Shown: positions 3,558 through 30,328 of the stretch, in pieces
How positions within the stretch are numbered: position 1 is the stretch's first letter
Layout of the letters: each line of letters starts with the position of its first letter
NCBI GenBank assembly: GCA_008802785.1
Contig: VUYT01000011.1
Location: 1 to 64,000, forward strand
Length of the DNA: 64,000 nt
From: Symmetrospora coprosmae
Lineage: Eukaryota; Basidiomycota; Cystobasidiomycetes; Symmetrosporaceae
Direction of reading: 5' to 3'
Notes under the pieces: generated by a model
Databases searched by the model: none
What the model saw: only the letters and a program-made list of their open reading frames with translations
What the model was told of the DNA's origin: nothing
Position numbers and translations under genes: made by a program

Positions 3558-6500
3558 CTACGCCAAGGACGGGCCAAGCACGGATGCGAGGAGCGCCATG
3601 CGGACGAACAGGCCGTACCGCATCTGGCGGAAGTAGCTCGCGCGCAGGTCAAAGTCGACTTCGGGCGCGATCTCGGCGTTCCTCGGGAGAGGGTGCATGA
3701 CAATCATGCTGCTCTTTGCCTTGGCGAGGAGCTGTCAACGGTCGACCGTGCGTATCAGTACCATGTCTTCCTCGTACAGTGAGGTATGGATCGAGAGGGA
3801 CCGGAACTCACATGATTATCGACAATGTAGGCGTCCTTGACGGCCTCGTACTCGGTCTGGCTGCTGAAGCGCTCCTGCTGCACGCGCGTCACGTACAGCA
3901 CGTCCGTCTTGCGGATCACGCTGTCCAAGTTGGTCGTCTCGTGGAAGTTGGCGCCTGCCCGGCGCAGCTCGTTCTTGACGGCGTCCGGCATGGGCAGCGA
4001 GGGCGGCGAGACAAAGTTGAGCGTGACAGAGTAGAGCGAGAGCAGGCGGACGAGCGAGTGCACCGTCCGACCGTACAGCAGGTCGCCGACCACCGTCACC
4101 GTGAGGCCATTGACCGTTCCCAGCTCTGCGGGCGGGCGGACACGGGAGGAATAGAATGAGCAAAGGCTTCCAAGCAAGCAGAAGAGGAAATGGAGCAGAC
4201 ATACCTTCTCGAATGCAGAAGACGTCGAGAAGAGCCTGCGTCGGGTGCTCGCCTGATCCGTCACCAGCGTTCATGATAGGCACCGGCGAGAACTTGGCCG
4301 CCGTCTGTACCGAGCCAACTTCTGGGTGCCGAATGACAATGGCGTCGCCGTAGCAGCCGAGGGTCCTGACCGTGTCGGCGAGAGATTCTCCCTTGGTGAT
4401 GGAGGACCTGTCAACATTGACAGACACGACCTTGCCACCGAGCCGGTTCATCGCCGCCTCGAACGATGCCGACGTCCGCGTGGACGCCTCGAAGAAGAGC
4501 GAGCACAGCACCTTGCCGCGCAGGATCTCGATCGGCACACCCCGCTCAACCTGGATCCGGAGCTCGTTGGCAATGTTGAAGAGCGTGTGAAGGTGCTCTC
4601 GGTTGAACTGCCGCACCGAGAGGATGTGGCGTCGGTAGAAAGCGGCGTCGTGGGGCACGCGGATCGCCGCCGCGTATGGGTAGGCCGAGGCACCGAGAGC
4701 GCCCTGCAGAGCGGCTGTCTGCATGACAGGTGTCGACTCAATGAGCGACTTCTGCAGGGACGACGAAGCAGCGGGGAGAGCAGACTGTGCGACCTTCGGC
4801 GAGCGCAAGCTGTCGAAGACCTGCGGCACAGCCTGTTGCGAGCCGAGCTGGCCAGTTGAGGACGTGATCGAAGCCATGGACGGGCGCTGCTGAGACGACG
4901 AGGTGAAGGAGAAGCGGGCAGATTTGCGCCGCGTGATAGTGCTGGAGGCTGAGCTCTCGGATACGTCTCGACCGAGCGGGATCGCACGGCCGGTCGTCTG
5001 CGACTCGAGGTAGGCGACCTGGCCGCGGAGAACCACGCGGTCGATGGCGCCCGACAGCTTCGTCTTGCCGTCCAGCGGGGACCAGTAGCCATGCCTGGCG
5101 ACCTGGTTAGGCCGGTCGATCTCGACTTCAACATACGTGTCTGCCTGTTCAGGCAGATTGAAGATGCGGCGAGGGTTGCTCGAGATGCGCTGTGTGACCT
5201 GGTCGAGGCTGAGCCTGCCGTCTGCGACTGCCGAGAGGAGGAGCAGAAGGGCTTCCTCGTAGCCGGCCTCGACCGACACGGACTTGCCGAGCTGCTTAGC
5301 CAGAGTGTGAGGAATGTTGCCGACGGAGAAGGCGTCGATGACTTCCAGGTTCGCCCAGAGCGCTTCCTGGTCAGCCTTGGTCGGGAGGACCGATGCTGAC
5401 GGGAAGTCCTCCTGCGAGAGGAAGAGCGAATAGACTGCCACGTCGCAGCTGACCTGCAAGTCCTTCTCCTTGCTCAACGCAATAAGCTCGACATCGTCTC
5501 GGCTGGAAATGCCCGTGACGTGGATGCTTCGCGAATGCAGCGAAGCGAGCAGGAGGATGGATGCGAGGTCGTTGCGCTTGGCATCGGTAATGATTGGCTT
5601 ATCCGCCGGCCATGCCGAGAAGAGGGAAGCAATGGTCGAAACGGAAGGTGCTGGCGTCGACTTGTCACCGAAGGAAATGAAGAGAGAGCGTGCAGAAGCA
5701 ATGACGTCGTCCGTCAAGTCGGCAGCCGACTTTGGCGAGACCGTGAAGGCATAGTCGCAAGCGACTGGACCCTCGATGGAAGCACCAGCGTCCAGAGGCG
5801 CGAGCTGGAGCGTCGTGAAGCCGCCCCGCAACGCCGCCTGTGTGGCTTGTACCATGTCCGAAGCGGTGCCAGGGACGAAGGCGGCAATGTTGACGAAGCC
5901 AGGCAGCTGCACGGTCCGGTGCGACGACTTGAAGTCAACGTTCGAGATTTGGAAGCTTGGCTTGCGGACGAGCGCCTCGATGAAGAGCTTGGCGCACTTG
6001 ACGTTGGTCAGGAGCGGGACAGCAAAGTCGACTGCCATTCGTCGCGAGCGGTAACCCTTGCTCATGTAGCTCGCCGGGCGTCGGTACCTGTTCTTGGACG
6101 GCAGGTTGACGTAGAAGTCGATGAGGTTGTTGGCAATGTGCTGATCCAGCGAGTACTCAGACTTCTGGCTGCTCGACCCATCCTCGTCTGCAGCGAGAGC
6201 CTCAAGGTACTTGACGGGGATGCCGTGCTCCTGAATGAAGTCGGCGGTACCGGCTGTGGCGAAGATGTTGTAGCCCGCGCGGTGCAAGTTCTGGACAGAC
6301 GGCAGCATCTCGAGCTTCTCCTTGTACGACCCAATCGAGAAGAGGATGTTCTTCTTTGGGATCTTGATGCCGGTCGAGATGAGCGACTTGATGTATGCCT
6401 CGTACTTGTCCTTGCCGAAGCATGCAACCTCTCCCGTGGAAGCCATCTCGACACCGGAGATGGGATCCGCACCGGAGAGACGGCTGAAACTGAACTGTGG

Positions 6501-9500
6501 CACCTTGATGCCGACGTAGTCCTTGGGCATCGAGACCTCCGGGTATGGCGACACGGGCATGCCCATCATGACATCGGTCGCGAGCTCGATGGCATCGATC
6601 CCGGTAACCTTGCTGACGAAAGGCCAGGACCGCGCAGCTCGGAGGTTGCACTCGATGACCTTGATCTCGTTGTTCTTGGCGATGAACTGGATGTTGAAAG
6701 GTCCAGTCACGTTGAGTGCGTTGCCGATCTTCTGCGTCGCCTCCTCGATGCGCCGGATGGTGACCGGATCAAGGTCCTGGGGCGGGTGGATGAGGGTGGC
6801 ATCACCCGAGTGAACACCGGCGTTCTCGACGTGCTCGCAGATGTAGTGCATGACGAGCTTGCCGTCTCTCGCAACCGCGTCCATCTCGATCTCCTTGGCC
6901 TCTTCGATGTACTTGGAGATGACGACGGGGTGGTCCTTCGAGACGTTGGCAGCCTGGGTGAGGTAGTTGTCGAGATCGTCGGCGGAGTAGACGACGTTCA
7001 TGGCAGCCCCGGAGAGGACGTAGGAGGGTCGGACAAGGACAGGGTAGTCAACCTTGTCGCAAAAGGCGTGTGCCTCCTTAAGCGTGCTCAGCTCCTTCCA
7101 GAGCGGCTGGTCGACGCCGATCTGGTCGAGCATTCGCGAGAATTTGTAGCGATTCTCGGCGGTGTCAATCATCTCTGGCGAGGTGCCGTAGATCTTGACG
7201 CCCTGTCGGTGCAGCGGAAGGGCAATGTTGTTTGGCGTCTGACCTCCCATGGAGATGATGACACCGGAAGACGTCTCAATCTCGTAGATGTCGAGGATGG
7301 TCTCGAGACTGATGTTTTCGAAGTAGAGTCGGTCTGCCTCGTCGTAGTCGGTCGAGACTGTCTCTGGGTTGTAGTTGACCATGACGGTCTTGAAGCCGCG
7401 CTCGCGCAGGGTGCGGATGGCACGCACCGCACACCAGTCAAACTCGACGGAGGATCCGATGCGGTAGACACCGGAGCCGAGCACCATGACACCCTTGTCC
7501 TCAAAGTCGACGTCGTTCTCGACAGCCGAGTACGTCATGTAGAGATAGTTGGTGAAGGCTGGGAATTCGGCCGCTACCGTGTCGATCTGCTTGACGAAGG
7601 GAACAACGCCCATCTCCTGCCGCAGGCGACGGATGGCAAACTCGTTCGAGCCAGTCAAATTGGCAAGCTGTCGATCGGAGAAGCCCATCTGCTTGGCGGA
7701 CCGGACGACATCGCTTGGAAGCTGAGACGAGGACCCGAAGGATCTGCGGTGGGGCGTAAGCGAGTTAGCGTTGCAAATGAGATGCACTACAGAAGTCACA
7801 CTCACGAGACCCTCTTCTCCATGGTCACAATGTGCTCCAGCTTGCGAAGGAACCACTTGTCGATCCTGGTGAGCTCCCAGATCTTTTCCACCGAGTAGCC
7901 AGCGTGCATGGCGTTGGCGATGGCAAAGATTCGCTTGTCTGACGGGTTGACGAGCTCGAAGACGAGCTTGTCGTCCGAGGCTTCGGCGTACTCGTTCTGG
8001 CCGAAGCCGGCAAATTGGAAATCGATGGCACGAATGGCCTTCTGGATAGTCTCCTCAAAGGTCCGGCCGATGGCCATGACCTCTCCGACAGACTTCATGC
8101 TGCTGCTAAGCGCGGTCGAAACTCGGGTGAACTTCTTCAAGTCCCATCTGGGGATCTTGACGACGCAGTAGTCGAGGGAAGGCTCGAAGCAGGCAGACGT
8201 GACCTTTGTGACCGAGTTCTTGATGTCGTTGAGCGGGATGCCGAGACCGAGCTTGGCGGCAATGAAGGCCAGTGGGTAGCCGGTTGCCTTGGAGGCAAGG
8301 GCGGATGAACGGGACAGACGCGCGTTGACCTCGATGATGCAGTACTCCTGCGAGTCCGGGTTGAGCGCATACTGGATGTTGCACTCTCCGACAACGCCGA
8401 GGTGCCGAATGACGTTGATGGCGGTGGTTCGGAGCATGTTGTAATCTGCATCAGACAGGGTCTGCGATGGCGCAACGACGATGGAGTCTCCAGTATGGAT
8501 ACCCAGCGGGTCGAAGTTCTGCGGAGAGAGTAGGGTAAGTCGGAGAGTTCGGCCAAGGTGCCGAGGGGTCGGCGACCCACCTCCATGTTACAGACGGTGA
8601 TGCAGTTGTCCCTGCAGTCACGAACGACCTCGTACTCGATCTCTTTCCATCCCTTCATGCTCTTCTCGATGAGCACCTGGGGTGAGGTGGCGAAGGCCTT
8701 TGTGCAGAGCTCGACAAGCTCCTGCTCGTTTTGCGCAAAGCCAGATCCCAGACCGCCGAGTGCGAAAGCCGCACGGACGATAACGGGATAGCCGATCTTT
8801 GCTGCAGCGGCCGTGCACTCGGGGATGTTGACAGCAGAGGCGGACTCGGCACAGTGCTCGCCGATCTCGGCCATGGCGTTCGCGAACAGCTCGCGATCCT
8901 CTGTCGTGATGATGGTCTGGATGGGCGTACCCAGCACCTTGACGCCCAGTCCTTCGAACTCGTCCTTCATCTTGATACCGACCGAGAGCGCGGTCTGGCC
9001 ACCGAAAGTGACATAGATGCCGTCTGGACGCTCGTGCTCGATGACCTTGCGGACGAACTCGGGTGTGACGGGCAGGAAGTAGACCTTGTCGGCCAGGCCC
9101 TTTGACGTTTGGATCGTAGCGATGTTGGCTGGCGGCGAGAACGCGGAGCGAAGCGGGATAGAGCGACGGAAAACACGGCAAGTGGACGGATGAGACACGG
9201 CACGGACACGGACACGGTACGCATGACGACATGGAGAAGGAGAAATAATAATGCATTGCATAAGCTTCTGAAGCCGCTTCTCTCTGATACACATGTGCGC
9301 CTCTGAGCGCGGAAGGGGAACGCACGGTTGATGAGCACGGTATAAATCCCTTCCTGCTTTAGCGCTTTAATCGCCTGCGACCCGGAGTAGTCGAACTCGC
9401 CCGCCTGTCCGATCGAGAGACCGCCAGAACCGAGGACCAGGACCTTCTTGACATGCACGCGCGGGTACGCGGCAATGTTGTCTGCGAGGAGCCCACCTGG

Positions 9501-11581
9501 AACTTTGATGGGGACGAGCTGGCCGGCCTTAGCACAGTCGAGCACGTTGCTGATGAAAACGTCAAAGAGGAACTCCGTGTCTCGAGGACCGGGTGTGGAC
9601 TCTGGGTGGAACTGAACCGAGAAGTACGGGTGAGTAGTCGAGTAGATACCCTCGTTTGAGCCGTCGTTGGCGTTGACAAACAGCTCCTTCCAGCCGGACT
9701 GGAGCGACGAGGCTTCAACGGCATAGCCGTGATTCTGCGAGGTGATGTAGCATCGACCGGAGATGAGGTTTGTGCAAGGGATGTTTTGTCCGCGGTTGCC
9801 GTACTTGAGCTTTGTCGTCTTGGCGCCGGACGCGAGACCGAGCAGCTGGTGGCCGAGACAGATACCAAAGATGGGGAACTTGGCCATATCCATTGCCTTC
9901 TTGAGTCTGTCAATGGTGGCAGAGACAGTGACGGGGTCACCAGGACCGTTCGAGATGAAAAGACCGTCGAATGGCTCCTCTCCCGGTGCAAGAAAGTCAT
10001 AGTCCCAGGGGACTACCTTGAGCTCGACACCACGCAGGACAAAGCATCTGATCTGATTGAACTTCATGCCGACGTCCACAGCGAGAATGCGCAGAGGTCG
10101 ATTATGTGTGGGGTGCATCAGCTCTTTGGGCGAACTTGGCTTCGAAGGGAACGTCTTGGGGCTGTATATCTTGGGCTCCTTCAAGCTGACAGTCGCAACG
10201 AGGTTCTTGACATTCGGGTCATCGAACGGGATGTCGACGTAGTCGGACCTCCACTGCGAGGCGGTGGAATGAGAGCTGGTTGAAGATCGGACGGCATCAA
10301 GCAGACGGCTGGCACGATTCTGCAGAGCGTTGACGACGCCGCTGCTGCTGCTTTGGGTGGCTTCGGATTCGCCGTTGGTAGAGATGGCCCGCTGGGCGAG
10401 CATCTTGCAGAGCAGACTTCCCTTCTCCCTAATCATCTTGGTGATGGCTCGAGTGTCGACGCCGTAGATAGCCGGCACACCCTCCTCGGCCAGCCACTGT
10501 CCGAGCTCGCTGTCGGCCAGGAAGTGCGAGTAGTCGTCGGCTGCGCCAGAGTACGAGCCAACAACGAGTCCAGCGATGTGGATACGAGACGATTCGAAAA
10601 AGGCAGGCAGAGTCGGGCCCTTGAAGCCTTCCGGGTCGCGTTTGGGTACACCGTACGAGCCGACCAGAGGGTACGTCAGGACGAGAATCTGGCCTTCGTA
10701 CGAAGGGTCGGCTGTGAGTGTGTAATGCTTGTCAGTAGGCAGGTCAGCGGTTGAATAGGGTATGAATGCACTCACTGAGCGATTCGGGGTATCCGACCAT
10801 GCCTGTTCACGTTGTGAAGCGGGAGAAGCAGTCAGCGTGTGCCCGCAACGGTAAAGAGCTCGGCGAGGGCGACGGTGAGGAGAGTCGACGGTTTCAGGAC
10901 ACTGCATAGCGTATATATAAGTTGTAAAAGAACAGTGCCGGGGTTATGCCTCTTCACTGCCTCCCTGGAACCAATGTCCGCAGGGCGACGTTGGACTGGT
11001 GCCAACTGAACGTTCATCATTGAAGAGGGGAGGTGCCAGGAGAGGGAGAGGGATGTATTACGACTGAGAGACTGACCTGTCTGGAAGACGCATTCTCCCG
11101 AGACGGATTTGCCCTTTGCACCGAACGAGAAGCCCTGGAAGGCGGTCCCATCGACGAGCTCGAGGACCATCTTGTTGGCGCTCGGGGCGGCTGTCGGGTC
11201 GGCGTCCACGCCTGAAGGGAAGCAGACGGGCTCGTGGAGGTGGCCTGCCCCGACGCTGGAGAGGCCTCGCTGCTGGCTGGCGCCACGGCGTCGGGTCGAG
11301 CTGGAGCGCGACACCGTAGGCGAGGTCGAGGTGGACTGCTCGCCGTTCGCGCCGACGACAGCAGCATCATCACCGCCGGCAGCGCCGTTCTCGAAGCTGA
11401 CCTGCTTCTTGTCGTCTGCGTCGTCGCCGTTCACACGGCCAAAGTACGGCTCTGGGAGCTCGACGCTGGGTGTAGAGACGACGGCGGGGAAAGCGGCGGC
11501 GTCGCTCGAGACTGCAAGCGAGGTCCTGGCCGTCTCGCGGACCGCGTCGACCGCGTGGTTCGGGTCGGTGTTGCTCGACAT
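3558..11581 (-). CDS. URA2: URA2/CAD: carbamoyl-P synthase-aspartate transcarbamylase
   Basis: Multifunctional cytosolic enzyme for the first two steps of pyrimidine synthesis: glutamine, bicarbonate and ATP to carbamoyl phosphate, then carbamoyl aspartate. Predicted 2401 aa from eight exons: 11581-11077, 10802-10776, 10711-9326, 9128-8581, 8518-7806, 7743-4205, 4125-3812, 3731-3558; every junction is GT-AG and in frame. Domains: divergent N-tail (~1-130); glutamine amidotransferase with FGICLGHQ (Cys about 462) and SVQFHPEST; two ATP-grasp halves of the synthetase (~590-1630); dihydroorotase-like domain (~1670-2020); ATCase (~2090-2401) with [16 protein letters not shown] and [12 protein letters not shown]. 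The dihydroorotase-like domain has PGFVNIAAF where active enzymes have a His-x-His motif, so it is inactive, as usual in fungi; a separate URA4 is expected. UTP feedback is known for the family, not visible here. Exon 2 is 27 nt. Confidence 0.97.
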
Positions 11582-15124: not shown

Positions 15125-15854
15125 GGGTGAAGTGACATACGTTCAACGAAGGCGATACGCGACGGCCCCGCACAGTATCTTCTGCCCGGGATCTCAGCGA
15201 CGAGTCTGTTGCAGGTGGTAATGACCCTCCATGGACTTGCCAACTCTCTGTCAATCATCGTGCGGATTGGTGGACTAAGCGATCCAGTATCTGCTCCCGC
15301 CGTGGCCCGATTCCCATGTTCACCGCCATTCTTACCGGACAAAGGGTCCTTTCAAGCCCCTCAAGGCGATGATAGGCGAGCATGGGCCATTAACTTGACC
15401 AATTGGCCACCACTATCGGCCACATCCTCTGCTCTGCTCTGCTCACCCACTTACTGACACAATCAATCCGAGCAAATAGCCACGAAGTAGCACTGCTCAT
15501 GACCAGAGTGAGTGCGGTACCGTCCTCGAGTAGGCCTAGAGGCATCTCTAATGGGTGCGCCCGTCCTTCTCGCGGTGACAGCCGAAGACGAGGGGCCTCG
15601 AAGTGCGTAACATTCCGAGAGCAGCTCTGGAGGTACCCATACGCTTGATGACTCTGGCTGACGCAGAGCTGGCCATTGAAGTGCCGGATGGACAAGTGGT
15701 GAGGCACGTCCAAGAGCTCATTTAGACTGGGGCTGTTGACCGCTGACGTGATGCCATTGATTACTCCACAGCATGGAACCGCGCGGACACCCTGAGTGCG
15801 TGTGGTCTGCAGCAACATCACTGACAGAGGCTGATCTCCGTAGGTCGATCTAGT
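15125..15854. other. Gene-free border of the accessory block
   Basis: No supported gene. Coding-like composition stops at the lipid kinase and the DNA becomes less GC-biased, as in the following 9 kb. Confidence 0.4.
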
Positions 15855-16609
15855 TGGACGAAGAAATATCATCACGAAGTGACGCACTTTGCTGTCCTGA
15901 CATTCTGCAACAGCATACGCAACACGCAAGGGCTTGCTGACTTGCAAGAGTACCAGGTGGAGACGGCAGCGACCTGTCCCTACCAAGGTAAAGGGAAGGC
16001 GTGCAAGTACGCCAAGGCTTCACGCTATCTGGCCGGCAAAGGATGCAGCACTCGCTGATATTCCCTCTTCTTCGTCTGACAGCGATCCCCGTGGCTTATG
16101 TCCGTCCTCAATGTCTCCTTCTCGGATGCAATGCTCAAGGTGGTGTGTTCAGGTGGCTGACGGTCACTTTCCCACCAGCCTCATTGATTACACATCTGAC
16201 GACCAAGCATTCAGTCAACTGGACCGAACACCTCATAAACTGCAAATCCGAACACACTAGATGGGCCGCAGTCAAGGTTGCCGCCGTGCGGTCGGATTTA
16301 CCGCCTCGAACGCACGCAGGTGGACAAGTGTTGACGACGCAATTGGCTGGAGTCAAGAGGCGGCGGTCTTCTCCTGGTCATGACAACACCCATCGGACCT
16401 TTGCATCCAGCGGTCAGCAGGGTCAAGTCGCTCCATCCCGATGTGTTCCAGCCACGCAAGCCGAAGTGCCGGCATCCAGCATGACATCAGGCGGTAGGAT
16501 ACCGCAAGTGCCGCAAACGCAGTACGCCTCCGGGCTGCCGCACGGACTTGAGCAGATTGCTCGATACAATACCGTCTCGACCTGGGGCAGCCACCCTTCG
16601 CAATACTGA
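15855..16609 (+). CDS. Unknown Cys/His-domain gene 1 (one domain copy)
   Basis: First member of a local family. Around 15867-16008 the translation has HHEVTHFAVL, then about 30 residues on ATCPYQGKGKACK, followed by a plausible donor GTACGC. Around 16178-16222 a further exon has SLITHLTTKHSVNW. This Cys-Cys, intron, His-x4-His order recurs in the next two genes and resembles a split C2H2-type zinc-binding module. The tail is short and Ser/Gln/Arg-rich, ending at the stop at 16607-16609. I could not fix all splice sites, so the exon chain is provisional. Function unknown; a nucleic-acid-binding role is only inferred from the Cys/His pattern. It could also be a decayed copy. Confidence 0.35.
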
Positions 16610-16840
16610 GCGTACCTCCGGGAGAAAAGAGACACTCTGTGCGATGGTCGTTCTGCCACCCTTCGGGCGATGTGGCAGCCTCGCTGGTTAGCTTATATCC
16701 GCTATGCTATAAATGCGCATCAAGAGCACAGGTCTCGTGCTGCCTTGTCAGTACAGCATTGGAGCCATCCCTCTCCCCGCACCTTTTGCCCTCCAGCCTT
16801 TGCATGGCAAGCAGGCCAATTATGCCTGTGTCGAGCCGAG

Positions 16841-17064
16841 GTCGATTTTGCACAACGATCAACTGACATCAGCTGCTTGTGCGAGCCGCGAACCTTCAAC
16901 ACATTGCTGACTGACGCTCAGATGCTCTGCGTCGCACTGACATCCGGGTGTCTGCGCCCGGCAAGGCCAGGATGTCCAACGCATCGGTGCCGGTGGCGAA
17001 AGAATTCCTACACAACCCTGCAATGTTGTCTGACAAAGGTTGACTCCGCAGCGTCGGGGCGGTG
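16841..17064. repeat. Direct repeat, copy 1
   Basis: About 224 bp nearly identical (a handful of differences) to 20003-20228. It lies just upstream of unknown gene 2, in the same relation as copy 2 to gene 3, so it is best read as duplicated promoter/leader DNA. Confidence 0.9.
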
Positions 17065-17173
17065 TCTGTAGACTGAAGCCACTGCTAGACGTTTAGTCGT
17101 TCGTCGCTACAGGTCTCGCAGTCGCCTCTTTGCTCCCGCCAATCGCCCACTTGCACCAGCCCAATACCAGTCA

Positions 17174-19642
17174 TGGCACCCAGAGCAAGGCCGGAAGGAC
17201 AGCCAAAGGTAAGCAAGTAGGTCTGCTTGACTCGCAATCTACATTGGCTGATACCGGGCTCCCTCGAATCAGCAGTGCCGGGTACCAGGCTGGTAAGCAC
17301 GGCCTGTCCAGAGCGACTCTGTCTAATCCTACATTGCTGGTCAGCACTGACAAAGCTACTCATCCATAGTCCTTGGACAGGAGCAGCGTAGGTCCTGCTG
17401 GAAATCACTGTCGGGTAGTTTGACTATTGACGCGGAAATCCCTGTTCACTAGGAGCATTAAGCAAACGCACGAATCCGACCACTACATAGCATGGCGCTT
17501 ATTAGGGACCGTTACCGGTAAACAGCTCAAAGCAGAAGACTTCGATAGCGCTGGAATATCCTGTCCCTGGCGAAGGGAAACAGGCGCACCGGATACTTGC
17601 AAGTGAGTCCCCTTCGCGGTCTGTGATTCCTGAACCTTATCTTGGTTCAAACAATTGACTAGTCATTGTCATTCAGGGGACCTATGAACCTCGGTAGGTC
17701 TCCTACCACGCAAGGGCACATTGCATCGGTGCCTTATTGATGAATATGTCGGTCCTCTCGCAGAGGCATTCAGAGAACACGTCAAACTGATACATGCGGA
17801 TCGCCACGATTGGGTATCACTCCGCAAATCTTTGGCAAAAGAAACTCAAGCTTACTTGATGAACGTTGGCAAAAATCAAGAGTTCCTGGATCAGCATTGG
17901 CATCCGACGCCGCTTGGGGCACGACCTCAGAGCTCAACAGCCGGCCCTGTCGCTATCAATGTCAACGCGGCAGAAGCTAATGCAGCTTCTCAGGGCACTG
18001 TTGTGACAGTCTCAAAGGCACCTATCACGAAGGTCAGTGCGGTTGTATACTTGCTGCTTCCGCCAGCCTGTTTCGGTACCTGGCTGACAAGGCTGTCCGT
18101 CTACAGTGTCGGATCCCCGGATGGTGAGTGACATCTGTCATGAACGAGCAGGAAGTAGCGCATGCCAACAGCGACCCTTGCCTCCCGCCAGCCTAGAACC
18201 CTTCTCGACGGGCCATGAGCTGAAGCACTTTTGCGTGGGTAACTGGCTAATACGCAACGGTGTGAGCCAGGAGAACCTCAAAGAGAATATGACTAGCGAA
18301 GTAGTCCGCTGTCCTCTCCCCGGCTGCAGGTGCGTTGATAAGTCCCACGGGCACTTCGATTCATGCGGATCTGGCTGAATTCCAACCTGTGCCTTCATAC
18401 AGGAATGTGCCAATCTCCTACAAGAGTAATAACCTTCTTCTTCCAATCGAGCTACAACCCGGGGGCTGATGTGATGTATTTCATTTGGCCTTCACAGCCA
18501 ACGGTCTGGGCCAGCATTTGGCTAAAAAGAAAAACACAGCACACAACACCATGTGGAGCACTATTCAGGGAGACTTAGCCCCTCGTTATAACGCATGGGT
18601 AGCGAGCATCCAACCCAATCGCCAAGTCCCTTCTCCCTGGTTGGATCCTGGCAGTACCGGTCCGAAGCGCAAGATCGAACCTACTACCTCGAGTCCGCAC
18701 CCGGAGGTGCCACCTTCCGACAAGCGTGCGCGCAGCAAGAGCCCCAAGGAAGGCACGTTGCTTGAGTTCGACGAGCTGTACAGGGAACCAACACCACCTG
18801 CTGCGCACAACAAGGGGATTGGCGAAGCAGCCCTGTCTTCTTCGACTCACTTGGAGGGGCGTCATAGATCATCCCCGCATACAAGGTCTCCGGCGACCCC
18901 TGCCCCTGCCCTTGGTAGTATGAATCCTGGACGACAGAGACTATCTCCAAGCTCGGCTGGACGGCCTTCGCCCGCAAGCCCTAAGTCCGCGAATACGCCC
19001 TCGCCGGGGTCTGGTGGACTACACCCTGGTACTCCTTTACCCATCCGCTCGTCATCACAGCGTTCGAGATCCGGACTGTCAGACTCCGGCTCCTTACTGC
19101 AATACAAAGCTTCTTCGACTGGCAGCAAGCCAACTACGCCGGGACGCGGTGCAGCAAGTCCTGCGGGAAGCGTTCGACACAATAACGGCAAAGAGCGAGC
19201 AAGCTCTACCGATTCAACAGAATCACTCACAAAGCAGTGGTCTCGAGGAGTGGAAGCAATGGATGCGGAGCCGCTGCAACGTACACACTTCAGGGGAAGA
19301 CCACGATACCGCGATGATGTCACCTCGCAAGGTTCAGCCTCTCGCGGTCCGTCCACAACGGCGACGGCGGGGACCTACTCACCGCGGACACTCTCTGCGA
19401 TAGGCAGAGCGGCGCAAGAATTCCGAGACGTCCTATACGAGCTCGATAAAATGCCCTCTAGCTCGTCACCGTCGTCCCGAGCCCAGAGTCGCGGAAATCG
19501 ACCTACCAGCGCGGGTCCTCAGTCACGCGGCTCGCAGGCTTCCGGTTCTCGTCCGCCTCAACCTTCCCAGAGCAGGCCTATGGGCACCGCCAGTTCATCA
19601 ACATCGAGATCAGCGAGCTCAGCGCGAGCCGGACGAAGGTGA
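17174..19642 (+). CDS. Unknown Cys/His-domain gene 2 with Ser/Pro-rich tail
   Basis: Provisional multi-exon gene. Domain copy A: HESDHYIAWRLLG then ISCPWRRETGAPDTCK (17470-17605) and, after an intron, EAFREHVKLIHADRHDW (17762-17812). Domain copy B: GHELKHFCVGNWLI then VVRCPLPGCRC (18208-18330) and FTANGLGQHLAKKKNTAHN (18487-18545). From about 18590 to the stop at 19640-19642 comes a tail of some 350 residues, disordered, rich in Ser, Pro and Arg, with a KRAR basic motif, TTPGRGAASPAGS and repeated Ser runs. The tail is clearly paralogous to that of gene 3. A possible start is MAPRARPEGQPK at 17174, directly followed by GTAAGC. I recognise no family. Nuclear location is inferred from basic motifs only. 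The long tail frame is the best-supported part; the 5' exons are uncertain. Confidence 0.45.
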
Positions 19643-19700
19643 TGGTGCTCGCCAAAGACAGGAGAAAGTGGTAATCAGCACAATCCACTAGAAGCGTTCC

Positions 19701-19770
19701 TAGATCGAGTGAACAGTCCTTAGATGAGCAATCACTAGATGAGCAGTCCTTAGATGAGTATGTCCGTGTA
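19701..19770. repeat. 15-bp minisatellite, copy 1
   Basis: Four to five imperfect units of TTAGATGAGCAGTCC directly after gene 2. The same unit follows gene 3 at 23696-23760, so the array was duplicated with the genes or has arisen twice from a shared seed. Confidence 0.85.
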
Positions 19771-20002
19771 TGTAAAACCTTGAAAAAGAGCTTCTCTCTT
19801 TCGTGGTTGACATCATCGGTGGCTCTTGTGTCTCTGCGGGTGGAGATGAGCAGCCTCATGAGTTTCGATTTCGACGAGTCGACGGTTGACACAGGCCGAC
19901 TCGCTCGGGCGCTGGCATGTTACGAACCCCGATGGAAGCGACAGCGAACAGAGTACGACAGTGATGGCGAACTTCGCTGGTCTTCGCTGGTCCTGTGCCT
20001 TC

Positions 20003-20228
20003 GTCGATTGATGCACAACCATCAACTGACATCAGCTGCTTGTGCGAGCCGCGAACCTTCAACACATTACTGACTGACGCTCAGATGCTCTGCGTCGCAC
20101 TGACATCGGGGTGTCTGCGCCCGGCAAGGCCAGGATGTCCAACGCATCGGTGCCGGTGGCGAAAGAATTCCCACACAACCCTGCAATGTTGTCTGACAAA
20201 GGTTGACTCCGCAGCGTCGGGCGGTGTC
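20003..20228. repeat. Direct repeat, copy 2
   Basis: Near-identical partner of 16841-17064, just upstream of unknown gene 3. The low divergence indicates a young duplication or gene conversion. Confidence 0.9.
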
Positions 20229-20344
20229 GACCTTGGAAGCGCTGCTAAACTATGCTCGCTCGCTTCAGAGCCACTCTCCGATTAGATGCTCTCTCTCCCT
20301 CGTCAATCTTATTGTTCCAACCATCCATCCAACTCAAGTACACG

Positions 20345-23300
20345 ATGAATACGCACTGGGACAGTGCTGTCACAGACCCAAAGTCTTCTTGGCTTCCATT
20401 CCCGGTGCGTGCCTGCGTTGCGCGTGTGCCGCTTTGCATGTGCCGACATGCGCCTTCCCCCACGTTCCCCCAAACCACTCCAGTGCCGAATGCCTGGGTG
20501 GTGAGTAATCTCCATCTGTTGAAGCCTTTGCCAGGTCTCGCTGAGATGCCTTTTGCGCCTAGCCCGGCAACGGCTCAGACAGCGTGAGCAGCTTCGCATA
20601 GCCTGTTTTCTCGGCACCCTTGCCCGCTAAAGCAAGTCTCCTTACATCACATTCAGGCCGTACAGAGAGCAACACGAGTTCATACACTTCATCGCCTGGA
20701 AGTATTCTGAGCAAGTGAACGGGCAAGCTGTAGATCCAGCCGATGTCGAGCCCGGCAGCCTTCGATGTCCACATCAGGGCTGTGAGTTTTCCGCGGAAGG
20801 ATCTGCGTAAGTTCCGTACATCTGTCGTGTGTGCATATAGCCTGCTTACGATAGGTTCTGCCTACAATAGACCACTCAATCTCGGTCAGCAAGCCTTGCG
20901 CTATGTGACGATATGTGACTGCCTGTGTAGCGTGCAACTGAAACAGTGGACCCATGCTCCTTACAGCGTCCTTCACGTCTCACCTGAGGAGTCACGACAT
21001 CAAATATGACAATCTTCGGAAGCAATATGCGCAGCAGTATAGGCTCTGGATACCGAAGGTACGGCCGTCTAAAAGAATCGGATGATCCACCGTCCGGGAG
21101 GATATGGCTGATATCTGCAACTTTTTACCACAGTGCCGTGTCCTAAACTGGTGAGGCACGCCGTCTTGCATTCGGTTGTCTTACCAGATTGCCTGAGATT
21201 CTTCCGCTACTTTCGGAAATGACGGTCTTTGGTACTAGCGAGGCTGACAGGGGTGAAGAGCGGTAGGCTATGCGCGGACAGTGTACCGCGCGGCGCTTGC
21301 GCTGATATTCGTCTCCCGCTTCTCCGTAGTGCGAATCTGCACCACGAGCTAGAGCATTTCATCGCTATGGACTATTGTCAGAGCGAGCTGGTCCGTCTGG
21401 GAAAGTCTCGCCGAGCAGAAACAGAATTTGCAGCATCCTTCACCTGTCCGCTCAAGAGCGAGGAGACAGATCAAGCAAGCCCGTGCAAGTGCGTACAGCA
21501 CCTTAGCCTCGATACTGCACAATCTTAAGCTGAAACAAGTTCCGTATCAAAGAGCAAAACTTACCCTAGGTACGCAAGCTACCACTCGTGATTGCCGAAG
21601 TCCTATGCGAACTGAACTTTTTTTCAACAGGAGCTTTCTCAGGACACTTGCTGAAACAGCACAAGGTTTCGACCTGGACGTGGAGACTCGTAAGAGAAAG
21701 GTACCGTGAAACGAGCACGCAGGAGTATAAACGCTGGTCAGCGTGGCTCAAGGCAAAAGGGGCGGCAGTGACGAAACCGCCCGTGACGAGGCGAGCACCC
21801 GACAGGACCGGTCAGGCGAAGACCGTGAAACCACCGTTGAAGGTCAGTCCAAGATGCTCCGACAGACAGAGAATCTCGATATTGGGGCTGATGACTTAGC
21901 CATCTTCTCAGTGCCGATTCCCTGGCTGGTGAGCTGAACACGTAAGACAGAATGAGGAGAAGATACCGACTGACCGTACTCGTGCCGGAACCGTGCGGCG
22001 CTCAGCGACGATGTGTCCGCCGCCCCAAATCCTTCGTGAGCGGGCCTTCAGCTAATTCCGAAGGGTGTGGATCTGTCAGCTGACGACTCGGCTAACTGGC
22101 TTCTGCAGTGCGGCACGCTCGCGTCACGAGCTGGAACACTACGCAGCCTGGGCTTACATTTCCAAGGTCTCGAGAGACTCGCATCTGGACAAAAACTCGG
22201 TCGGCAAGACAGGCCTAGCGTGTCCGCATCGCGGAGGTTCTGGGTGCAAGTAAGCCGCCGCCCTCGACACCGTCCGCCTATGCAGCATGACACGATTCTG
22301 ACGCTGAGCAATGTCTTCTGGGCGGCTGATGCCTTACCAGTGGTCCCTTCACGATTGGTGTGTGGAGCATCTCGTGCTGATCAATCGCTGCCCGAGTGGA
22401 GAGCTGATGCTCCAGAACCCAAATTCAACAGACACCTTCCACAAGCATGTTCAAAGAGTTCATGGCGTACGGTGGGTAGCATACCGCTCAGACCTGGAGA
22501 AAGCTTGCAAGACATTCATTGCCTCCCAAGTAGCCATCCGACATCAAGCACGGCCAGCACCTACCGAGAAGGCTGCCTCGACCGTGGGCCGGTCGGCTCC
22601 GGGAGACAAGAGTCCTGCCCAGATGTCTAGCATAGCTGCCGGGAAGCGAAGAAGTCGCGCTGGCGCATCGCCCTCTCCGCCGGTCGATCACGGTAAACGT
22701 GCACGAAAGGATCCCGAAAGCCCAGAAGAGCGAGGTCGGTCCTGCTCAACTTCCGACGACGACCTGTACAGGTCGCCTACACCCCCTCGCGCTGCTAAGG
22801 GCTCAAGGGCTCGCGAACGGCCGCCTCCCGCCGGAAACGTGAGGGTATCCCCCGGTGCGATAACCCCGACCGGACCCGCAGTCTCGTCTGCGGGTGTACA
22901 GCTTAGAAACACGCCCTCGACTGGCCCCCGTGCTGGAGGTACAGCGAGTTCCGAGCAGCACAGGCATGGACACGCTTCGCACGCCAATCAGCCCAGATCG
23001 AGCGCAAACATGGCCTCGCCGCACCCAATTGGAGCTTCACATGGTATCCCTGCACCCGTCCGCCCGCTATCACAGCATTTGAGCTCCCGAGGCTCAAGCC
23101 CTGATTCGATACCACTATATCAAGCCCCTCTGACAGGAAACAGGCGGACTACGCCCGGACGTGGTGGAGCAAGTCCTGCGGGAAGCGATCGACACAATAA
23201 CGGCAAAGAGCGTTCAAGCTCTATCGAATCGAATGACTCACTCGGGACGCAATGGGTAAAAAAACTGGCAGAAATCAATGCAGGGTGCTCACAATCTATG

Positions 23301-23419
23301 CAAACGAGGGGAAGAACACGTCATCGCGGGAGTCATTCAGGAGCTTCACCATCGCCGGGGGGGACCTGGTCTCCGGGGACTCGCGCTGCAATTAAAGAGC
23401 TTGCTGAAATGGCGTCAAG

Positions 23420-23453
<34 letters not shown>

Positions 23454-23627
23454 AGTGCACAGAGTCGCGGTAGACAACCAATGAGCGCGGGTCCTTCCTC
23501 AGGCGCCCCGCAGGCTTCCGGTTCTCGTCCCCGTCAACCGTCCGAGAGCAGGCCTGTGAGCACTACCAGTCCCTCCCAATCTCCCTCAAGACCGCCAGCG
23601 AGCTCAACGAACGGCAGCCGCAGGTGA
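20345..23627 (+). CDS. Unknown Cys/His-domain gene 3 with Ser/Pro-rich tail
   Basis: Provisional multi-exon gene with three domain copies. Copy A: HEFIHFIAWKYSEQ then SLRCPHQGCEF (20670-20785) and SFTSHLRSHDIKYDNLRKQY (20966-21030). Copy B: HHELEHFIAMDYCQSE then SFTCPLK...SPCK (21340-21490) and AFSGHLLKQHKVSTW (21631-21680). Copy C: RHELEHYAAWAYISK then LACPHRGGSGCK (22118-22250) and TFHKHVQRVHGVRW (22434-22475). A tail of about 350 residues to the stop at 23625-23627 has GKRARKDPESPEERGR, TTPGRGGASPAGS and a run of about twelve Ser, and aligns along its length with the tail of gene 2. A possible start is MNTHWDSAVTDP at 20345. It may be more than one gene. No known family recognised. Confidence 0.45.
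23418..23456. repeat. Trinucleotide microsatellite coding for poly-Ser
   Basis: A run of CGT/TCG units inside the tail of unknown gene 3 encodes about twelve serines. The paralogous tail of gene 2 has only a short Ser cluster here, so this run expanded after the duplication. Confidence 0.9.
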
Positions 23628-24632
23628 AGGGCATCGCCGAAGACGGGAGAACGCGAAGGGCAAGCAGAACAGCCCACGGAGAAGCGTTCTTGTTTGGATG
23701 AGCAATCCTTAGATGAGCAGTCCGTAGATGAGCACGTCTTAGATGAGCAGTCCGTGTATGTAACATCACGCCAAGAGCTGCTGTCCTGTGTGTGTGACAT
23801 CATTTGCGATGGTTCCCAACTCCACGTGTGCGGAAAAGCAGCCTCGCTTTCGACACCTCAAGAAGTCGAAAACGCATATCGACTCCACGTAATCAATGCC
23901 GATGAAGGCGGTATCGGGCACAGTGCAACAGTGATGGGGTCCGTCGTTGCTCTTCGCTGGTCTTCCGCCTTCGGCAAAAAGCATGAGCTTCGTCCGACTC
24001 GGAAGCTCCTCGACGTGCCGGAGCCCGAGCATTTGCCTCAGAGCTAGGCATTGCAATCACGACTGACGGAAGGATGGTGCTCGCGGCTAGGACGAGCCGG
24101 TGTGCTCGCTTGAGCACGCAGTCGCGTCGTCGTGCTCGCGCACTGAACAGCACTGACTGAGCATCCTTGTCGTATCGAGCAGCTTGAAGCACAGCAGAGC
24201 GCACGGAGGTCGCCAAGGGTCGGTAAGTCAATACGGCTGTTGGTACATGCAGCCTTCCGGATCAGAGAGGGCCTCGCAGCTGATCCGTTCCATGTGGATG
24301 ATCAGCGCGCGCTCAGGCCTCTCTCACGCGTTGGCGGTCTGCATCTTGGCCGTCGTCGGATGGATGGTCCAGCGTCAACAGCAGTAGCAGCAGCAGCACT
24401 GGGTGGAGCAGTACATCAGCAGCATTGAGTAGACTGACTAGTCGATCCGAAGACAACCCAGCCTCGCTCCTTTCTCCACTTCCGCAACGGCGCTCCGGCC
24501 ACTCCTGTCTCTGCGCAACGGTCCTTCCGTACACGTCAGGCTCCGACCCGGACGCGCACACATCCAAGTAACGGCGCACGCGGCCTCGGTAATCAGCAAA
24601 CGGCCCCTTGATAGGAGCGAGCGCCAGGAAGG
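23628..24632. other. Gene-free stretch after the accessory block
   Basis: It begins with the minisatellite and a flank related to that of gene 2 (for example a shared CTTCGCTGGTCTTC segment near 23950), and ends in the presumed promoter of the kinase gene. I see no supported gene. Confidence 0.5.
23696..23760. repeat. 15-bp minisatellite, copy 2
   Basis: Four imperfect units of the TTAGATGAGCAGTCC type following gene 3, matching the array after gene 2. Confidence 0.85.
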
Positions 24633-27600
24633 ATGGCTGCAGAGTCATTTCCGGCTCCCGTGCAGCTGTTTCAAACGCACTTGATTGCACCGTTCCCAGC
24701 GCTGGACAAGGTTAGACGAAGGAGCAGCTCGCTGAACGCGCCCGTCTTTGTGAACGTGGCCTTCCCTGCCAGCGCCCCTCTCACACCACGTCTGCCAAGG
24801 GCCTCTGAAGGAGGCGCCGCTGCAGCAGGCTTAGTAGGGCGGGATGCGCAGGGCGCCGCCGAGATGCCCGGACGATGGAGCAACCTGATCAATGGCAATA
24901 ATGCGAGCAAGCAGAAGGTTACGCCGGAAGGAAGGGAGAGACGTCTCAGTGCCGCTGGTGCGGGCAAGCAGCTCCTGCTGAGCATGTCTGGGCGTGCCAG
25001 TGGGGCCGCTCCTCCCGCTGCACCCGCTGCCGCCGTCGCCGTCGCCACCATCTCCGTCGCGGGCAACGAAGACGGCAGCGACCCCGACGATCTTCATGCC
25101 ATCTCTACGAGCGCGCAATTTCGCCCAAAGCCAAGCCACGCTGCTGGTGGTGGTGGTGGAGGGAGAAGAGTCTTTGCAGCCACGTGGGATGACAGGAGGG
25201 CGGTTGGAGGGGAAGAGCAGCAGCTGCAGCCGTCACAGCACCGCTCAGAGGGACGTCCGGACGTCCATAACGAGCTGAATCAGAAGGAGGAGGGAGGAAG
25301 CAGCGACGAGGCAGATCACCCACATTTGACCTCGCCTCTGCTCCTCTCTAGACAGGATAGGGATAGAGAGAGCGACAGCTGCGACGTCGACACGTCCATC
25401 TCGGAGCAGCGCGCCCAGGCCTACGCCGTGCTCACTGCAGCATCGCCGACCGCATCGCCTGCGAGGCGATCTTCGTCCACCCGCATCCCGCACGTCGCCC
25501 GCTCCTCGCCTACCCATCGCGGCATCATAGACGTATCCATGGCAGCTGCTCGCATCTCGCAACCCGCGCTGATGAAGATGGAGCTGGACGGACGCGCTGC
25601 GGCCCCGCCCTCAGTTCTGCCCCGTCGACGGACAACGTCCTCGAACGATGCGCCCAGCATGGCAGAGAGGGCAGCGACAGGGCAGCGTTCGCCGCTCGCG
25701 GCCATCTCTGCATCGAGTCCAGCATCGCAAAAGGCGCCTCGTCGGACACGCGTACAGTCGGCCAACGCCGCTTCCACCTCGCAGTTTGCCTCTGCCGTGA
25801 GCCCCGCAGGCACTGCGGCGGCCAAGGGGGCAAGGCGAGGCACAAGCTACTCCTCTAGGCGACGAAGCCTGAGTGCAGAAAACTCGCTCGTCGCGACGCG
25901 CCTGGCTAGAGCATTCCTTGCCAGAGAGCTCGGCGAAAAAGCTCTGACGAGAAAGGGCGTTGCCTTGTGCGCGTCTGCTGCTGCGCGCTGGCCAGCAGAT
26001 GATAGCGAACAGCGAGATCTCTGGACAGCCTTGCACGATGGTGTGCTGCTGTGCCGGTAAGTACAGTACAGCGTGACCGCTTTCAAGGCTGGCTCCAGCT
26101 AATCTGATGATATGCTGTGCACGCCTGTAGCCTCATCAACGGCCTCGTACCGCATTCTGTCAGGCACATAGACAGACGCGACCTTCCAGCAGCCAAAGCA
26201 GCCAACGTCACCAATTTCGTTGCTGCAGCGAAGGCTCGCTTGCCCTTGCAGCCGCACGAGTTCTTCGAGGTGGAGCAGCTGGTACGTACCGATGCCGCCG
26301 CTTGATCAGCCCCAAAGCTGACTCCTTCTTCGACGCTTTGTGCTCCAGTCCTCTGGGTCATCCCACGGCTTCGAGCGGGTCTTGCACACAATCTGCGCCA
26401 TCGCGGAATACGTCACGCTCCGGCAGCAACAGAACGTCCATTCCGGTGCATATGAGGCTTCACTGTCAACAGAGTCCCTCCTTCTCCCCTCACCCCTCTC
26501 CAGAATGGGATCACCGCTCATACCGCCGCTGCCAGCCTCGCCCACGCCCGGCAGCAGTTACTCTCCTACTCTGCCCTCGCCGACGCATCGCCGGAACAGC
26601 TCGCAGCTAGCCGCCTCGCCGGTATCTCCTGCTTTGCAGCAATTCAAGCCGGCGGCTAGGGCAACATCGCCAGCCTCTTCCCCTGCTCAGGTCATCCCAG
26701 CTTCTAGCGTCCCTCGGCCTTCTCGTCTCCTCAGTAGCTCCAGTGGTATCAAAATACGCTCGAGGACCGGATCGCGGCCGACATCTGTTTCACCGACCTC
26801 GCCAGACCAAGGCAATGTCGCTCTCGGTGTCACAGGCATTGGAGGCATCATCCAGACGCCACGTTCCCGAATGGTCTCTCCTCCTGCCACAGCGATAGAA
26901 GCGCCCGCGAATCGGCGCATCACGTTCGCCTCGTCGACAGCTTCGAGCTCGAGTGCCTCATCAGTCTCCACCCGGAGCAGGCATAGCCCCTCGCATTCGG
27001 TCTACAGCAATAATGCCGATAGGCGGATGAGCGAGTCTGCTGTAGAGATCATGACAGTTTTGCAGGAAGGAGAAGAGATGCCTGCGCCTCGTCGAGCAGC
27101 CAGCGATCGACCCGTCACTCTCGGTACTCGGACCCCGGATGGGGACTGCACGCCTGTGAAGATCAGCAGAGCGATGCTTGAAAGGCGCAAATCCTCCAAT
27201 GCGGTACATTCAGCTCGCTCGTCAATGGACCTCGATTCCTCGGTTGACGACCTCTCTACTGTCATTGCGCCCTCGCCGCGGCTGGTGACGGGATCGAGAG
27301 CGTCTGTCCTGCTTGCTTCGACGAGCTCAGGGGAGAGCGGTAATCAGCCCTCTCCTCGCATGTACCGGAGGCGATTGTCCTCGGAATTGCCCATCCGCGC
27401 AAAGTCAGTCTCACCCTCGCCGATTGGGGTCTCAAGTCACGTCCCCTTCCCGGCGGCCGGCATGCGCAGTCATGCTCGCCCTCCGCAGGAGAGCCATATT
27501 CCGCGTTTGAGCGTCGAAGCCGAGGACTTCTTGGAGGAAGATTCTGAGGCCAGAGACTATACACCCAGTCCATCGCCGCAGCCACCTTCTCCTGCACCAG

Positions 27601-30328
27601 ACAAGCCTGCCGCTCGGCCGCGGCAGCACAAGCGGTGGAACTCGGAGGTATTTGATCAGCCGCTGAATGGCAGTCGACTCCGCCACGACCCGACCGAGCC
27701 TCGATCGCGGCACGACAGCTTCATGTCGCCACCTAGTGCTGGCCTTGAGCCGCCCGCACTCCGAAAGCAGGGTGGCTCGGATGCCGGGCGAGGCCTGCGC
27801 AGGCGCAGCACAGATAAAGCATATGCGGCGGACGGCGCACGACAGAAGCTAGTCGTCTCTGAGCCTGGCAAAGCGCCTGTCACCTATGTGAGCATCGTCC
27901 GCTCGTCGCGAAGGCGTGGCGAAGCCTGCTAACCTCGTCCCGTCACCTCCTCAGCAACTGGGAGAGTGCATCGGCAAAGGCCAGTTCGGCTCGGTTTATC
28001 GTGCCTTGAACATCCACACAGGTAGTGTTGTCGCAGTCAAGCGCATCCAGCTGGCTGGCAAGAGCGAAGAGGAGATCATACAGCTGCAAAAGGAGGTCGA
28101 TCTGCTTAAGCGACTGTCACATCCGAGTGTCGTCACCTACGAGGGCTTGGTCCGCACTGAACACTACGTCAACATCATCCTCGAGTTGGTCACCGACTCC
28201 TCAGCTTTCTGTTCCGATGGCAAGGCTGACCCGCAAAGCCGGTCCCTGCAGATACGTTGAAAATGGGTCCCTTCAGCACACCCTGAACGCTTTCGGCATC
28301 CTGCCTGAAGCTCTAGTCGCCAGCTATGTCGTCAAGATCCTTGAAGGCCTCAGCTATCTGCACAGCGTGCACGTCATCCACCGCGACCTCAAGGCCGCCA
28401 ATCTGCTCACTACAAAGAATGGCAATGTGAAACTGTCGGACTTTGGCGTCTCGCTTCAGCTGAATGCGGTCCACAATACCATCGAAAATGCAGATGCGAC
28501 AGGCACGCCCAACTGGAGTGCGTTCGAATGCCAGTTTTGCTTGCCGAGTCCGCTGACATGATCGCTTTCGGCTCACAGTGGCTCCGGAGGTGATCAAGCT
28601 CGAGCGTGCCACCTTCGCTTCCGACATCTGGTCTCTTGCCTGCACGATTGTCGAGCTGCTCACTGGCAAGCCGCCGTACCACCAGCACAATGCCATGACG
28701 AGCATGTACCGTATCGTCGAGGATCCGATGCCGCCCTTGCCTCCGGGGTGCTCGCCCGAGCTCGAGGACTTCTTGACGCAGTGCTTCGCGAAGGAACCGG
28801 AGCAAAGACCGACTGCGGATGCTCTCTTTGAGCATGCCTGGCTGCGCAAGCACTGGCATCTGCACAAGGTACGTCACATGACTAGGCAGTTGCCTGCTGG
28901 CCGTACAGGTTGGGCCATCGTCTAACGCCCGTACCGCAGATGGTGCTTCGACCGCAGGACAGCATTCCATTCATCCGCCGCATCTCTAGCGAGTATCACC
29001 GTCGTTCCAGCTTCATGCGGGAACCTTCAAGCTCTTCCGAGGTCCCCGAGCTGGACCAGTCCGTCTCGTCGCCTGGCAACTCGAGCCTCATGGCGCGGGA
29101 CGATGCGTCGTCGCCGCAGATGTCGTATGCCGGAGACTCGTTCGCCAACGCCAGCGCGTGTGAGGACGCCAGCTCGTTAGCAGCGCGACTTCCCAAGCCG
29201 CGCACGGGGCCGGTACCGGGAGATCAGGACGTCATGATGAGCGACTTGCTTAGAGGCGGAAGGAACGTCGACGCGCCTGAACACATGGCGTTCTCCGTGC
29301 CCAATGCATATGTGGGTTTCGAGCTCGCGTGCCGTCAGCCGAACAAGCTGACGTCGCTCTTACCTTCTCAGCCCTTCCCGCTCGCATCGTCCTTGCCGCC
29401 TCCGATCGGTCTGTCCGAGAATGGACCAGCTCACGACTTTGTCAAGACAACCTTCAGCAAGCGTGAGTTTCATCGTCCTGTCCGTGTACTCGGTGCGCAG
29501 ACTGACTGGGTGTCATCGCGACTTGCAGCCATCGAATGCAAGCTGTGCCACCAACACGTGCGCAAGTATGCCGTCCTCTGCCAAGAGTGTGGCCTCATCT
29601 GCCATTCAAAGTGCAAGGAATTCGCTCCAGTCCCCTGCGACCTCCGCTCGCAGCTCCTTGGCCTGGCCAGCCCACCTGGTCCCCAGCCCACGCCATCGCC
29701 GATGCACATCCCGCATTCGGCGACAAGTCCGATGCTGGCATGCTCGGTACCGCTGATGGAGCCTTCGCCTCTCACATCGCCATCCCAGTTTGCCTTTCAC
29801 TCCAAATTTGGCATTGGCAATCTGCGCAAGTCGAAAGGGTCGCCAATCGAGGCGGGGCCCGAGAGCAGTCCTGGTCGAGGGCGCGGTGCCGGCCCGAATG
29901 CCAGCGCCGCCAACCTCGGCGGTGGTCTGCACATGCTGCGCACGCGGACCAGCTCGCCAGACGCAGGTTTCCGACTCCCGCTGGCGGGCCGGCCCCGTCC
30001 AGCCTCATTCGCCAGCTCGAGCAGCCTGCCCATCTCACGGCGAGAGGGCAACGCAAGCAGCATCTCTAGCTCGAGCGACAGCCATCCGCTCTCGGCTACA
30101 GCTTCCATACCAGAGGACTCGGTCGTCTCGCCTTTCTCGAGCACGCCGGCCAGCTCGCCTCAACAGCCGCCTTTCACCGGTCACTCGCCAAGTGCGGCCG
30201 CCGCCCTTCCTAGCCGTTCTTCTCTGCTCCTCTCTCGCCGCTCGCTCTCTGCACCTGGGAAACCGACAAAGCCAACCAAATCCAAGCACGGCAAGAAGGA
30301 AAGCTCTGGAGACTGTATCATTGCCTGA
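24633..30328 (+). CDS. Cdc7/SepH-type kinase with CH, C1 and CaaX motifs
   Basis: Ser/Thr kinase, about 1740 aa, most like the septation-initiation kinases Cdc7/SepH (Cdc15 group), so a role in cytokinesis or polar growth is likely. Exons: 24633-26056, 26131-26281, 26349-27887, 27955-~28188, ~28252-28517, 28579-28868, 28940-29462, 29529-30328. Order: disordered N-region; calponin-homology domain (~430-560) with WTALHDGVLLCRLINGL and GFERVLHTICAIAEY; ~480 disordered residues; kinase (~1039-1300) with IGKGQFGSVY, VAVKRI, HRDLKAANLL, DFGVSL, APEV; C1 zinc domain (~1470-1520) with CKLCHQHV, CQECGLICHSKC; Ser-rich tail; polybasic SKHGKKESSGDCIIA at the end, a CaaX prenylation signal. The junction between exons 4 and 5 does not fit a GT-AG intron while keeping both IILE and YVENGSLQ in frame, so that site needs evidence. 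Residue numbers are approximate. Confidence 0.88.

Follow-up and report, generated by a model that had tools for sequence, protein, structure and literature searches.

Analysis of a 64,000-nucleotide (nt) stretch of Symmetrospora coprosmae DNA (contig VUYT01000011.1 of assembly GCA_008802785.1, positions 1 to 64,000; hereafter the window) revealed three tandem genes of a small family with a fixed ligand pattern and fixed exon phases, in which each domain probably comprises two consecutive C2H2-type zinc fingers. Two additional genes with four domains form a second cluster ~92 kb farther on in the contig, bringing the known family to five genes and ten domains (d1 in gene 1, d2-d3 in gene 2, d4-d6 in gene 3, d7-d8 in gene 4 and d9-d10 in gene 5). 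Taken as a whole, the best explanation is a family of paired C2H2 fingers that would bind nucleic acid in the nucleus and whose divergence would change their targets; we assign this explanation a probability of about 0.7. What is new is the divergence and the exon design; the metal site itself is not of a new kind. The exon models were drawn from sequence only, with GT/AG sites, open frames and concordance of the copies as their basis.

All ten domains fit the pattern C-x4-C-x7-15-H-x3-H-x26-30-C-x4-15-C-x11-17-H-x3-8-H, and under the modelled exons both fingers follow the Cys-Cys-His-His order in 10 of 10 domains. Domains are roughly 95-115 residues long, with one to three per protein. A preliminary description of the window had reported six H-E-x-x-H-[FY] exons in which C-P and another Cys come next, with a further His pair beyond an intron, and had grouped them as one domain family with exon breaks at the same places. 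These features were recovered on the + strand, with the second His pair spaced H-x3-4-H in five copies, and the breaks agree in phase as well. The domain start had been placed one or two exons too late, however, and what had been read as an unknown HExxH element leading into a CP..C / H..H module became, once the missing exons were added, two probable C2H2-type fingers in a row.

The missing first Cys pair is carried by small exons. Upstream of each HExxH exon lies a 17-nt unit, ag/TGYCG...TG/gt, found exactly six times in the window, which codes C-R-x-x-x plus the first two bases of one further codon. In all window copies but d3, a long intron (155-180 nt) separates this exon from the HExxH exon, and each of these five introns harbours a small in-frame exon (18-30 nt) whose initial C or T completes the Cys codon; in d3 the codon is completed by the HExxH exon itself. 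Across the family, the second small exon is 12-30 nt long, is present in 8 of 10 domains and always has a length divisible by three. Between the CP..C and F-x-x-H exons there is a third small exon (14-23 nt; 17, 17, 23, 14, 17 and 17 nt in window order). With the long introns split in this way, all introns of genes 1-3 measure 58-91 nt (65-77 nt in gene 2, with GT donors and AG acceptors; 61-91 nt in gene 3). All ten domains show the intron phases 2, (2), 2, 1, the third intron being missing from d3 and d9, and a leading phase-0 intron is present in the nine domains where it could be placed.

When the five long introns were dinucleotide-shuffled, a Cys-first small exon arose in 15.4% (d1), 19.4% (d2), 12.1% (d4), 23.8% (d5) and 27.9% (d6) of shuffles; the product of these rates, the chance of finding one in all five, is ~2.4e-4. 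Skipping of the second small exon is predicted to replace Cys with Trp in d2, d4 and d8, to end the frame in d7 and to keep the Cys with a shorter loop in d1, d5, d6 and d10. On a far more speculative reading, which we regard as improbable, the genes would form a lineage-specific arsenal of paired-finger nuclear proteins engaged in a genetic arms race against a selfish locus or mobile elements; a shared upstream element would drive them, and inclusion or skipping of this exon would toggle finger 1.

Conservation is concentrated at the ligands. Alignment of the six window copies gave C1, R2, C6, H21, E22, H25, C55, P56, H76 and H81 as invariant; among the ten domains, seven of the eight ligand columns do not vary, and the remaining one is kept in 9 of 10. 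Outside these eight columns pairwise identity averages 16.5% (range 7-26%), which bears out the earlier view that metal-ligand-like residues are held while the rest diverges. Ligand codons mix TGC with TGT and CAC with CAT, and this synonymous variation indicates that the amino acid is what is kept. In finger 1, 7-15 residues separate the second Cys from the first His and three separate the two His; the Cys pairs read CRMDKC, CRVPGC, CRIPGC, CRMPGC, CRVLNC, CRFPGC, CGMPEC, CPMQGC, CRITGC and CLMDRC. Finger 2 has C-x11-H in 8 of 10 domains (14 and 17 residues in the other two) and H-x3-4-H in 9 of 10. For comparison, C2H2 fingers have about 12 residues between the second Cys and the first His, and 3-5 between the two His. 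An aromatic residue follows H-x3-H in every domain, Pro follows the third Cys in eight, and a C-terminal aromatic segment, W...Y-x2-W, is largely kept (W115 in 8/10, Y130 in 7/10, W133 in 8/10).

A zincin-type metallopeptidase, or a relic of one, would account for H-E-x-x-H in all six window copies, but across the family the Glu is kept in only 8 of 10 domains, the other two reading HQQGH and HGHYH (Gln and Gly), while both His are kept in all ten. The missing Glu makes a peptidase unlikely; C-x4-C precedes each HExxH, and Pfam returned no peptidase family. We consider this alternative very improbable indeed, in agreement with the earlier caution that HExxH here need not be a protease motif.

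The preliminary description knew no named family for the domain. For whole-domain searches of Pfam and the PDB this held; finger by finger, profiles point weakly to C2H2 fingers. In hhalign comparisons with canonical C2H2 fingers, finger 1 scored 19.7 (equalled by 0 of 200 column shuffles) and finger 2 scored 12.9 (equalled by 1 of 200); untrimmed probabilities were 34% for the whole-domain alignment, which matched through finger 1, and 45% for finger 2. Against the PDB, the finger-2 profile retrieved 11 distinct sequences, all C2H2 fingers (10 RAG1, 1 YY1), with RAG1 best at an expectation value (E) of 0.0086, or 0.025 for a single stretch; the ten RAG1 sequences belong to one family and therefore count as one independent match. 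The finger-1 profile retrieved six sequences, all at weak E values; behind a mitochondrial ribosomal protein came SWI5 (0.2), YY1 (1.1), REF6 (7.2), KIAA0535 (7.5) and ZIC3 (10). In the printed alignments (RAG1, SWI5) the ligands pair one for one.

A separate two-zinc fold with interleaved ligands, in place of two sequential C2H2 fingers, would explain why the whole domain matches no named family, why the spacing between halves is tight (26-30) while loops within halves vary, and why W...Y-x2-W is kept. The CCHH-CCHH ligand order and the similarity of each finger to C2H2 fingers argue against it, and we judge such a fold unlikely.

Several observations weigh against paired C2H2 fingers. Neither the whole proteins nor the individual domains reached the cut-off of any Pfam family, C2H2 models included, and whole-domain profile searches of the PDB found nothing significant (best E 0.93 and 1). 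The hhalign targets were seven canonical fingers typed by hand, and the finger-1 PDB list is topped by a mitochondrial ribosomal protein (E 0.19). Splicing of these genes is itself modelled: exon choices yielding a Cys were preferred, as in d9, where a 14-nt exon was passed over for one of 20 nt that gives Cys; alternative small exons exist in d5, d8 and d10; d7 needs a GTC donor and has no small exon under a strict donor rule; and the gene 1 donor after 16099 is an unusual GTCCGT. Loop lengths vary (x7-15 in finger 1, x4-15 in finger 2), the second finger-2 Cys of d4 is out of column (C-x17-H), the finger-2 His pair of d3 is H-x8-H, and a tail ratio of nonsynonymous to synonymous divergence (dN/dS) of ~0.7 points to weak constraint. 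With these points counted, two C2H2-type fingers per domain remain likely.

To find relatives, DNA patterns were used, since a genome search with the gene-3 protein returned only gene 3 itself, missing gene 2 and the second cluster, and was therefore not sensitive enough to serve as evidence of absence. The six window copies go beyond chance: the pattern AGTGYCGNNTNNNNNNNTGGTRNG of the 17-nt exon, written from them, had 7 matches in the 20.05-megabase genome and 2 for its reversed-pattern control; the seven were the six window copies and a relative at contig position 117411 that revealed the second cluster. A second pattern gave 13 matches (control 4), nine of them in the two clusters. The other four, on contigs C17, C55, C74 and C75, equalled the control in number and had no H-x3-H exon, and were rejected. 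A third, looser pattern gave 42 matches (control 25), ten in the two clusters. Among the 33 of these 42 that were covered, an H-x3-H-[FYW]...C exon lay downstream at nine of the ten family sites and at none of the 23 others; at the tenth family site (locus L005) the sequence stops before that exon. More diverged members could be missed, protein searching being too weak.

A 210-nt repeat upstream of genes 2 and 3 is 98% identical between them, and the proteins of these two genes show about 25-32% identity. By blastn, genes 2 and 3 have 227 nt upstream in common at 97%, and genes 4 and 5 have 150 nt at 92%. The core TGTCNGACAAAGGNTGNCTC, written from these four upstream copies, has four matches in the genome, upstream of genes 2-5 (control 0), and a weaker form accompanies gene 1 near 15,300-15,370. 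In blastn between gene units at 1e-3 no match linked the two clusters, the upstream link resting on the short core; rows at 100% (genes 1-2, 2-3 and 4-5) were overlaps of excised stretches and were dropped. The shared upstream sequence suggests common control of genes 2-5 or homogenisation by conversion. Tandem 15-nt units, TTAGATGAGCAGTCC-like, were also observed at 19695-19773 and 23684-23762, directly past the stop codons of genes 2 and 3.

Long tails rich in Ser, Pro and Arg (Ser 19-23%) close the products of genes 2-5 and contain basic clusters, among them KRK, KRARK and KRLKKK, which are candidate nuclear signals. Over their matched parts the tails of genes 2 and 3 show 73-75% DNA identity, with dN 0.41 and dS 0.59 over 191 codons and codon-position identities of 0.69, 0.69 and 0.60. 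Within the variable tails a short motif is kept: DELYREPTPP in gene 2 and DDLYRSPTPP in gene 3, with TDIYYQTKPIS at the matching place in gene 4. Decaying gene or transposon fragments of no present function could leave a tail dN/dS near 0.7, the odd donor and unfixed start of gene 1 and the irregular finger 2 of d3. Yet frames are open across 10, 16, 11 and 10 exons in genes 2, 3, 4 and 5, ligand codons vary synonymously, and no transposase-like or other Pfam match was found in these proteins; we consider decay improbable.

If the domains are paired C2H2 fingers, the family would be a small, fast-diverging, intron-rich fungal one with a front finger C-x4-C...H-x3-H and a back finger C...C-x11-H-x3-4-H followed by the short W...Y-x2-W segment. 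Two Zn2+ per domain are predicted, one in each finger, and the fold is likewise a prediction. The most likely site of action would be the nucleus, where residues lying between the constant ligands would contact DNA or RNA and the basic Ser/Pro/Arg-rich tail would serve in localisation or in the binding of partners; each copy's target would then change as the sequence between its ligands diverges. We give nuclear nucleic-acid binding with copy-specific targets roughly even odds.

The finger arrangement resembles C2H2 fingers such as SWI5, YY1 and RAG1 in its C-x2-4-C...H-x3-4-H order, and the C-x-x-P-G-C...H-x3-H of SWI5 aligns ligand for ligand with finger 1. The family differs from C2H2 fingers generally in its linker of 26-30 residues, its variable loops and the splitting of each finger by introns. 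KRAB-ZNF genes also form lineage-expanded tandem clusters in which the ligands are fixed and the residues between them change; here, in contrast, there is no KRAB-like effector domain, there are no TGEKP linkers and five genes were found. Tandem CWCH2 fingers of Zic, Gli and Zap1 likewise combine two C2H2 fingers as one unit, with longer linkers and extra sequence inside the fingers, but their linkers average 11.8 residues against 26-30 here (PMC2837044). Membership was rejected: a Trp between the Cys pair of both fingers (Cys-X-Trp-Xn-Cys), which defines that unit, is absent from finger 1 in 10 of 10 domains. In Trichoderma Xlr2, inclusion of a microexon decides the presence of a GAL4-like zinc-type DNA-binding domain (PMC11121469). 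That case is likewise a fungal microexon governing a zinc-type domain, of a different kind; in the present family every domain has its small exons, and these are not known to be alternatively spliced. Literature searches listed no paper on this paired-finger family.

Gene finders and domain libraries would probably overlook the family, since exons as short as 12-17 nt carry half the ligands of a finger and, away from the ligands, only about one residue in six is shared between copies. It suggests that a C2H2 pair can diverge until profiles no longer recognise it, with its ligands and intron phases unchanged, and the two tandem clusters offer a natural test of lost constraint against selection for new binding.

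Table. Modelled genes, small exons and upstream repeats. Positions in the second cluster are on the same contig (C2), whose coordinates equal those of the window.
Feature	Position	Strand	Details
Gene 1, possible first exon	15500..15508	+	ATG ACC AGA before GTGAGT; read by eye; start is a guess
Gene 1, body	15682..16609	+	d1 and short tail; 213 residues without the unfixed N-terminus
Gene 1, exons	15682-15698, 15772-15795, 15854-16006, 16083-16099, 16179-16609	+	
Gene 2	17173..19642	+	d2 and d3; 609 residues, 10 exons; Ser/Pro/Arg-rich tail
Gene 2, exons	17173-17208, 17276-17292, 17370-17387, 17453-17602, 17677-17693, 17764-18032, 18107-18123, 18192-18329, 18403-18425, 18498-19642	+	
Gene 3	20345..23627	+	d4, d5 and d6; 727 residues, 16 exons; Ser/Pro/Arg-rich tail
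Gene 3, exons	20345-20404, 20484-20500, 20563-20583, 20657-20806, 20871-20884, 20967-21058, 21134-21150, 21239-21262, 21330-21488, 21553-21569, 21631-21842, 21912-21928, 22006-22035, 22109-22249, 22341-22357, 22432-23627	+	
Gene 4	about 120390-118218	-	d7 and d8; 11 exons, open frame
Gene 5	about 117567-115484	-	d9 and d10; 10 exons, open frame
HE codons of the HExxH exons	15873, 17469, 18214, 20673, 21343, 22125	+	d1 to d6
17-nt exons	15682-15698 (d1), 17276-17292 (d2), 18107-18123 (d3), 20484-20500 (d4), 21134-21150 (d5), 21912-21928 (d6)	+	d2: C-R-V-P-G-C, last codon split
Second small exons	15772-15795 (d1), 17370-17387 (d2), 20563-20583 (d4), 21239-21262 (d5), 22006-22035 (d6)	+	Supply the second Cys; 18 nt in d2; none in d3
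Gene 2, upstream repeat	16849..17058	+	Common to gene 3; TGTCTGACAAAGGTTGACTC at 17027-17046
Gene 3, upstream repeat	20012..20221	+	Same 20-nt core TGTCTGACAAAGGTTGACTC at 20190-20209

The surroundings of the family were compared with Pfam, and Rfam gave no match in the window. The lipid-kinase neighbour named in the preliminary description was confirmed (DAGK_cat); its Cdc7-kinase neighbour was not, the open reading frame at 26322-27932 having no Pfam match. Neighbours of the second cluster are genes with PF03029 (GPN-type), UPF0172 and MRG domains. Elsewhere in the window, Pfam identified a carbamoyl-phosphate synthase/aspartate transcarbamylase-like gene on the - strand at 3816-10943 and the N-terminal repeats of an ATR-type kinase (UME, M-HEAT_ATR) at 61837-64000.

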